From Acidobacteriota bacterium (GTDB lineage: Bacteria; Acidobacteriota; Terriglobia; Terriglobales; Acidobacteriaceae): a stretch of 50,257 nucleotides of DNA. The position numbers were made by a program, and so were the translations under genes. The first letter of the stretch is position 1; every line of letters starts with the position of its first letter. Shown in pieces: positions 33,650 through 34,759 of this stretch. Where the stretch lies: NCBI GenBank assembly GCA_019351975.1, contig JABBOG010000019.1:1-50257 (forward strand). The letters run 5' to 3'. The notes below the pieces were generated by a model. It was not told the origin of the DNA and did no database searches. It saw only the letters and a program-made list of their open reading frames with translations.

Positions 33650-34759
33650 ATGTTTGACTCTGTTCCTTTGATGCCACATGCCGTTTGCTGGCGCGCTGAT
33701 CAGCGCCTGATCTGGGTAATGGCAGTCACAAATGCAATCACCTTTATCAGTTACGTGAGCATTTGCGCGACGTTGCTATTTCTTGCCCGGAAGACGAGGG
33801 CAGCGGCATCGCGTGATTGGGGATACTTCGCCGTCGGATTCGCGCTATTTATCGTGGCGTGCGGATCGACCCACCTGATGGAGGTGGTGACCACCTGGGT
33901 ACCATGGTTCTGGATCGATGCTACAGTCAATGCGCTAACTGCGGTGCTCTCAGCATGGGTTGCGTTTATGCTGATACGGCGAGCAGGCGCGATCCATTTT
34001 GGCATCAATGACTATGCCAGCAGACTGCTGAATACGGAAAAAGAAAAACGCCAGATGCTGGACAGCCTGCTGGCGGCGCAAAAGCTTGAGGAATGGAGCA
34101 GGATGTCTGCCGCGGTTTCGCATGAAATCGCCAATCCGCTCGAGGCCATCCAGAATCTGCTCTATCTGGTGCGCTCCACCGATGGTGTAAGCGACGAGAT
34201 TGTGCAGCTGACCCAGACCGCCTCTGATGAGGCGGACAGGGTGCTTACAATATCGCGTTCCACTCTCAGTTTTTTCCGCCAGGGTACGCAGCCCGAGGTA
34301 ACCGATCTGCTTGTCGCCGCGGAAGGCGTGCACTTTCTCATCGACGCCGCGCTGCATCGACGGGAGATCAGCTTCGAGCGGCAATCCAGTGGTGACACCA
34401 AAGTTGAAGCACTGCCCGGTGAGCCCCGCCAGGTGCTGCTCAATCTTGTACGCAATGCGTACGAGGCCACAACCAGGCCAGGAGCAAAGGTCTCCGTGAC
34501 TCTGACGGGTGCTGAAAACGGCGTCGAGATTATCGTAGAAGACCAGGGATCCGGCATCGACGCGATGATTCTCCCCAAACTCTTCCAGTTCGGCGTGTCC
34601 AGCAAGGGAGAAAATGGCAACGGCATGGGACTCTGGGCGGTCAAGCAAATCCTCAACCGTCACGGCGGCAATATCCGCGTGTACTCTGAGGTCAGCAAAG
34701 GAACACGATTTATTCTCTGGTGGCCGCGGCGCTTTCTTGCTCCAAGAGAGATCATCTAG
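33650..34759 (+). CDS. Sensor histidine kinase with ethylene-receptor-like membrane domain
   Basis: 369 residues. The N-terminal three-span domain resembles plant ETR1 and cyanobacterial Etr1: MPHAVCW, then VTNAITFISYVSICATLLFLARK, FALFIVACGSTHLMEVVTTW and ALTAVLSAWVAFML (residues about 8-109). Aligned to ETR1, the copper-binding Cys65 and His69 are kept (C71, H75), as are Tyr32 and Ile35 (Y35, I38), but Asp25 is Asn28 and Pro36 is Cys39. There is no GAF domain; a short coiled linker (residues 115-150) leads to the kinase: H-box SAAVSHEIANPLEAI with His158, N-box LLNLVRNAYEAT, G1 EDQGSGI, G2 NGNGMGLWAVKQI. Catalytic residues are complete. No response regulator lies next to it. Ligand unknown: ethylene, copper or redox state are possibilities, not conclusions. 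Confidence 0.9.
   Translation: MFDSVPLMPHAVCWRADQRLIWVMAVTNAITFISYVSICATLLFLARKTRAAASRDWGYFAVGFALFIVACGSTHLMEVVTTWVPWFWIDATVNALTAVLSAWVAFMLIRRAGAIHFGINDYASRLLNTEKEKRQMLDSLLAAQKLEEWSRMSAAVSHEIANPLEAIQNLLYLVRSTDGVSDEIVQLTQTASDEADRVLTISRSTLSFFRQGTQPEVTDLLVAAEGVHFLIDAALHRREISFERQSSGDTKVEALPGEPRQVLLNLVRNAYEATTRPGAKVSVTLTGAENGVEIIVEDQGSGIDAMILPKLFQFGVSSKGENGNGMGLWAVKQILNRHGGNIRVYSEVSKGTRFILWWPRRFLAPREII

Follow-up and report, generated by a model that had tools for sequence, protein, structure and literature searches.

Paired replacement of Asp and Lys by Asn in a clade of ETR1-type histidine kinases of Acidobacteria

Introduction

The locus described here encodes a histidine kinase whose sensor is of the ETR1 type and carries Asn in place of the Asp at position 25 of the plant ethylene receptor, and the question that it raises is whether such a protein is a decayed sequence, a receptor for another molecule or a working receptor with altered properties. 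According to PMC11819568, in computational models Asp25 places His69 and contacts Lys91, a contact that is also described in the review PMC13012798. The first of these sources states that mutation of D25 abolishes ethylene binding; the second describes the Asp to Asn form of ETR1 as a functional receptor with ~100-fold lower ethylene affinity, and the Asp itself as strongly conserved among the receptors of plants and bacteria, with natural variants. Asn at the Asp25 position is thus already known in kind. AzoEtr1 of Azospirillum brasilense is a functional bacterial ethylene receptor with a PAS domain (PMC11819568), and plant ETR1 is supplied by the copper pump RAN1 (PMC12643061). A search limited to open-licence literature, and therefore a poor guide to what has been published, found no paper on bacterial receptors among those that mention both ethylene receptors and Acidobacteria; the same literature yielded no paper on D25N ETR1, and Granulicella with ethylene receptors was not found among the best matches listed. 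The abstract of Azhar 2023 reportedly mentions Asn variants.

Results

The locus encodes an ETR1_N-type sensor histidine kinase

The gene (33650-34759, + strand) is an intact ORF with an ATG start in the window, as we call the whole stretch of 50,257 nucleotides analysed, and its predicted product of 369 aa, an ETR1_N-type sensor histidine kinase of the Asn28/Asn94 variant, joins an ETR1_N sensor to a complete histidine kinase. In Pfam, ETR1_N (PF25487) matched aa 20-111 (33707-33982) with 70.3 bits against a curated cut-off of 27 (E 1.7e-19), and helix 2 contains the Cys and His of the copper site. The HisKA match (aa 150-211) includes the predicted phospho-acceptor His158 in the motif SHEIANP (codon at 34121-34123), and the HATPase_c match (aa 259-360, 34424-34729) is complete, with motifs resembling the N-, G1-, F- and G2-boxes; all these features lie on the + strand. 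Together with the tree described below, these matches bear out the ETR1-type histidine kinase proposed in an earlier sequence-only reading of the locus, and an unrelated three-span sensor family is ruled out by the Pfam match and the tree. That reading had also remarked on a missing GAF domain, and GAF is indeed absent from the eight Pfam families that the protein matched, but this is unremarkable, as AzoEtr1 has a PAS domain (PMC11819568) and a number of the Asp/Lys relatives are themselves short, at 376-415 aa.

The sensor has three long predicted helices (residues 18-49, 55-81 and 87-139) in an AF2 model of residues 1-140, the mean pLDDT of which is only 67.5 and the pTM 0.40. The 46 matches to solved structures all fall on the kinase parts and leave the three helices uncovered, the earliest matched query residue being 94. 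The window protein is the sole ETR1_N match of its genome, which is 95.1% complete.

Ligand-site residues and the Asp-Lys pair

The protein was aligned to AzoEtr1 (L309, 525 aa, from A. brasilense MTCC4039, which is not the assayed strain) and to the sensor domain of AtETR1. AzoEtr1 L309 carries D35, C75, H79 and K98, matching the numbering of PMC11819568. In AtETR1 numbering, D25 aligns to N28 (codon at 33731-33733, + strand, as are all those that follow), I35 to I38, P36 to C39 (33764-33766), I62 to I68, and the copper ligands C65 and H69 to C71 (33860-33862) and H75 (33872-33874), so that the copper motif and the two replacements pointed out beforehand are all seen in the alignment. Y32, the seventh residue needed for ethylene binding, aligns to Y35; five of the seven are kept and two, at the D25 and P36 positions, are replaced, and the protein lacks in this respect the full set of a canonical receptor. 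The other six (D25, C65, H69, I35, P36 and I62) are those that published work names as needed for binding.

A third change had been overlooked: K91, the partner of Asp25, aligns to N94 (33929-33931), and N28 and N94 stand where a canonical receptor has the Asp-Lys pair between helix 1 and helix 3. This loss of the Lys partner is a stronger result than the points raised by the sequence-only reading. The alignment had been described as gap-free around helices 1 and 2, which is true inside both helices and fails between them, where the loop of the window protein has a 3-residue insertion relative to AtETR1 and AzoEtr1. Three AtETR1 residues just before the Lys91 position are absent from both the window protein and AzoEtr1. 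The P-H-x-x-C-W that had been noted is also present, and P-H-x-x-C is common to nearly all the bacterial relatives examined.

The protein resembles AzoEtr1 in its ETR1_N domain with C75/H79 equivalent to C71/H75, in its PHxxC start and in its histidine kinase output, but AzoEtr1 has D35, P46 and K98 where the window protein has N28, C39 and N94. Furthermore, AzoEtr1 has a PAS domain and an adjoining response-regulator gene (PMC11819568); Pfam gave no PAS domain for the window protein, and no such neighbour was recognised next to its gene. With AtETR1, the window protein shares the three-helix copper sensor and the equivalents of Y32, I35, I62, C65 and H69, while D25, P36 and K91 are replaced and the GAF and receiver domains are absent. 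The ETR1 Asp to Asn mutant (Azhar 2023 and Aman 2025, as cited in PMC13012798) has Asn at the Asp25 position like the window protein; as described there, however, the Asp alone is changed, whereas in the clade of the window protein the Lys and usually the Pro have changed too.

A clade in which Asn28 is fixed

Counts of domain sequences refer to the loci fetched, a subset of all ETR1_N matches. The 264 distinct domain sequences included 227 with both copper residues, both positions readable and at least 95 residues, and these comprised 194 Asp/Lys sequences, 20 of the window clade, seven others without Asp and six with Asp but without Lys. When columns 28, 39 and 94 were excluded from tree building, the window protein and its nearest relatives, 20 distinct sequences in all, formed a clade that had a support of 100/100 in a careful tree covering 101 rows (76 selected and 25 random), in which the bootstrap was unsettled and many other forks, given few columns, were unresolved; the support was 100 in a quick tree of the 227 rows with the same columns excluded. 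Asn28 is present in 20/20 members, Asn94 in 19/20 (Ser in L009) and Cys39 in 18/20 (L007 has Ser and L093 Ala). These changes, Asn28 without exception, mark the clade. Sensor identity to the window protein is 61-74%, with the copper-site Cys and His and Asn28 fixed, and the loop insertion and a TTW signature are specific to the clade. Before filtering, C71/H75 were kept in all clade loci examined (14/14 and 15/15 in two sets that share genes), unlike in L010 and L013, which have lost both copper residues. Judged from these sequences, Asn28 is a fixed clade character, and the window protein represents a genuine variant form of ETR1-type receptors that has become fixed; a lone variant or a sequencing error is ruled out, as Asn28 is common to 20 distinct sequences.

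The residue-39 position is much less informative. Among the 194 relatives that combine Asp/Lys with an intact copper pair it is P in 145, S in 32, A in eight, F in seven, T in one and G in one; the loss of Pro, which had been regarded as notable, means little at a position that varies across the family, and we rejected Pro to Cys as the key change as a general rule. A redox or copper-geometry role for Cys39, also suggested earlier, cannot be general because the Cys is replaced by Ser in L007 and Ala in L093 within the clade itself.

In a scan of named genomes, in which the best 80 of 376 relatives were kept, at least 15 clade members were found, in Granulicella, Bryocella, Occallatibacter, other Acidobacteria and two Rhodanobacteraceae-labelled records; the genome of Granulicella aggregans contributes two copies (L084 and L089). 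The latter two records (L097 and L098, both Rhodanobacteraceae by label) may be mislabelled bins or reflect gene transfer: L098 has dienelactone-hydrolase-like and AIM24-like clusters and L097 the AIM24-like one only, both clusters being shared with Acidobacteria loci. ETR1_N matched in 11/28 genomes of the host genus and 79/300 of the family; it was not matched in the other 17/28 of the genus, several of which are incomplete. For genomes of the phylum around Methylobacter-, Verrucomicrobia- and Chroococcus-labelled centres, the figures were 29/398, 18/240 and 45/146, respectively. A search with the Pfam model found, alongside the Asn/Asn receptor, an Asp/Lys one that has the copper pair in 4/18 clade genomes (G006, G305, G670 and G673) and none in the other 14, the window's included. 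Among 17 plasmid records, the best row had 36-39% identity and none was near the clade.

A second origin and the link between positions 28 and 94

The Asn/Asn pair was also present in L058/L190, which retains Pro at the Pro36 position and belongs to a supported group of 11 rows; the other 10 have Asp. Because L058/L190 nests among these Asp rows, the sequences indicate at least two independent origins of the pair. L058 (G055:C10:1417751-1418032) belongs to a longer kinase of 668 aa. In its genus, ETR1_N-type matches occur in 14/24 genomes, and no further Asn/Asn receptor was found among the loci examined, where some matches are partial and miss one or both positions.

With the window clade removed, Lys/other at position 94 was 194/6 in Asp rows and 2/5 in non-Asp rows, and this position ranked first among the window's aligned columns for its link with the loss of Asp28 (one-sided Fisher p 3e-6, the rows being related sequences and not events), the next-best column giving p 1.5e-3. 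When five long-branch or divergent rows were dropped, the counts were 194/4 against 2/2 (p 0.004). An independent-contrast test had three supported pairs, too few for significance. The coupling is loose, because Asn occurs with Lys (L270 and L288) and Asp without Lys (6/200 rows); L303, with Asn and Arg, is a further exception. In the search centred on Chroococcus, L270 and L288 are natural single Asp to Asn variants that keep both Lys and Pro, and L274, L277, L284 and L285 keep Asp and have Gln or Arg instead of Lys.

Gene neighbourhood

As named by eye from translations, rpsB and tsf are found upstream of the receptor gene and pyrH downstream of it, and a convergent dienelactone hydrolase gene (window:34767-35759) adjoins it; an AIM24-family gene is found at window:36369-37223. 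The rpsB and tsf neighbours are common to the window and L087, and L096 has a pyrH-like neighbour. The dienelactone hydrolase and AIM24 clusters are each present at 6/16 loci compared, the window included, in varying places, and no conserved operon or partner was found across these 16 loci. There was no adjacent response regulator among the four window neighbours scanned in Pfam, the remaining ones being judged by eye from translations; in the subset of 30 neighbour proteins scanned, a receiver domain appeared in one, within a hybrid kinase downstream of L089.

At two loci, a Cu+ P-type ATPase gene is located directly upstream of the receptor gene and on its strand: L084:3489-5807, identified by Pfam and motif (YHS, HMBD and a CPC motif), and L072:714-3188, 82% identical to the former, with gaps to the receptor gene of ~190 and ~230 bases in L084 and L072. 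This neighbour was seen in two genomes only (L164 and L200 cover these same two genes), and it was unmatched at the other loci of 309, whose flanks vary and in many cases are 1.5 kb or less. In these two genomes, a Cu+ ATPase next to an Asn/Asn receptor recalls, by analogy, the supply of ETR1 by RAN1.

Discussion

Because its relatives share the neutral swap, the window receptor is probably a working sensor with changed affinity or ligand. More specifically, the explanation that we favour, although we consider it evenly balanced between right and wrong, is a working receptor that would depend on Cu(I) and respond to ethylene or another small alkene of this type with lower affinity than canonical receptors. 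A membrane-bound homodimer would hold Cu(I) through C71/H75 and the alkene would bind the copper; a neutral Asn28-Asn94 contact would replace the affinity-raising Asp-Lys salt bridge that links helix 1 to helix 3; the ligand would alter the autophosphorylation of His158, with the signal then relayed by a response regulator whose gene lies in another part of the genome. This proposal is supported by the ETR1_N sensor and intact kinase, the retained C71/H75, the clade-fixed Asn/Asn pair and its second origin, and by the top rank of position 94 with the loss of Asp28 when the clade is removed. It is also supported by the Asp25-Lys91 contact and the functional low-affinity Asp to Asn receptor described in the literature, and by the Cu+ ATPase upstream in two genomes and the Asp/Lys receptor beside the Asn/Asn one in 4/18. 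Against it stand that the reported mutant, as described, changes the Asp only and is not the double Asn/Asn form, that D25 mutation is said to eliminate binding (PMC11819568), that the coupling of positions 28 and 94 is loose, with three supported contrasts only, that no Asp/Lys partner was found in 14/18 clade genomes and that the Cu+ ATPase neighbour was seen in two genomes only.

The retained copper residues, together with changes at several reported ligand-site or near-site residues at once, would also fit a sensor of another small copper-binding molecule (CO, acetylene, isoprene or another alkene), its pocket reshaped by the Asn/Asn pair and residue 39, and the clade-specific loop insertion and TTW signature point the same way. 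We find this unlikely, however: many of the Asp/Lys relatives have S, A or F at position 39, none of the neighbouring genes is both conserved and indicative of a ligand, and Asp to Asn by itself is reported to leave ethylene function (PMC13012798). A different ligand is not required, because the Asp to Asn form of ETR1 is reported, in the same review, to be functional at ~100-fold lower affinity; a ligand other than ethylene, as the sequence-only reading had suggested, is possible but not our first choice.

The presence of Cys39 in 18 of the 20 clade sequences and the Cu+ P-type ATPase gene that closely precedes the receptor gene in L084 and L072 could suggest instead a copper or thiol-redox sensor, in which no organic ligand would take part and C71, H75 and Cys39 would coordinate Cu(I) or act as a switch. 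This is quite improbable in our view, as residue 39 is Ser in L007 and Ala in L093, the Asp/Lys relatives retain the same Cys/His pair, and the ATPase matched no other of the 309 loci, whose flanks vary and are often 1.5 kb or less, save L164 and L200 (the same two genes). It is improbable, too, that the sensor responds to no ligand at all and that the receptor, drifting or set to a constitutive state, is maintained for the sake of its kinase: two of the seven reported binding residues are replaced and 17/28 genomes of the genus, several of them incomplete, have no ETR1_N match, but the sensor is strongly conserved in the clade (61-74% to the window, with C, H and Asn28 fixed), unlike L010 and L013.

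Beyond the low-affinity alkene receptor proposed for this locus, we would put forward, tentatively and with doubt prevailing, that the Asn/Asn proteins are a natural subfamily in which the salt bridge proposed to join binding and signalling in ethylene receptors was replaced at least twice independently by an Asn-Asn contact, the outcome being copper receptors that work over a different range or recognise a ligand other than ethylene. The double neutral swap is a natural experiment that bears on the separate parts played by the Asp and the Lys in ligand binding and in signalling, kept across Granulicella, Bryocella, Occallatibacter and their kin and repeated at least once elsewhere. The short kinases of ~370 aa are suited to measuring affinity and coupling, and the Asp/Lys receptors that some of their genomes also encode would serve as controls; such measurements would reveal if ethylene is sensed by these Acidobacteriaceae, and over which range.
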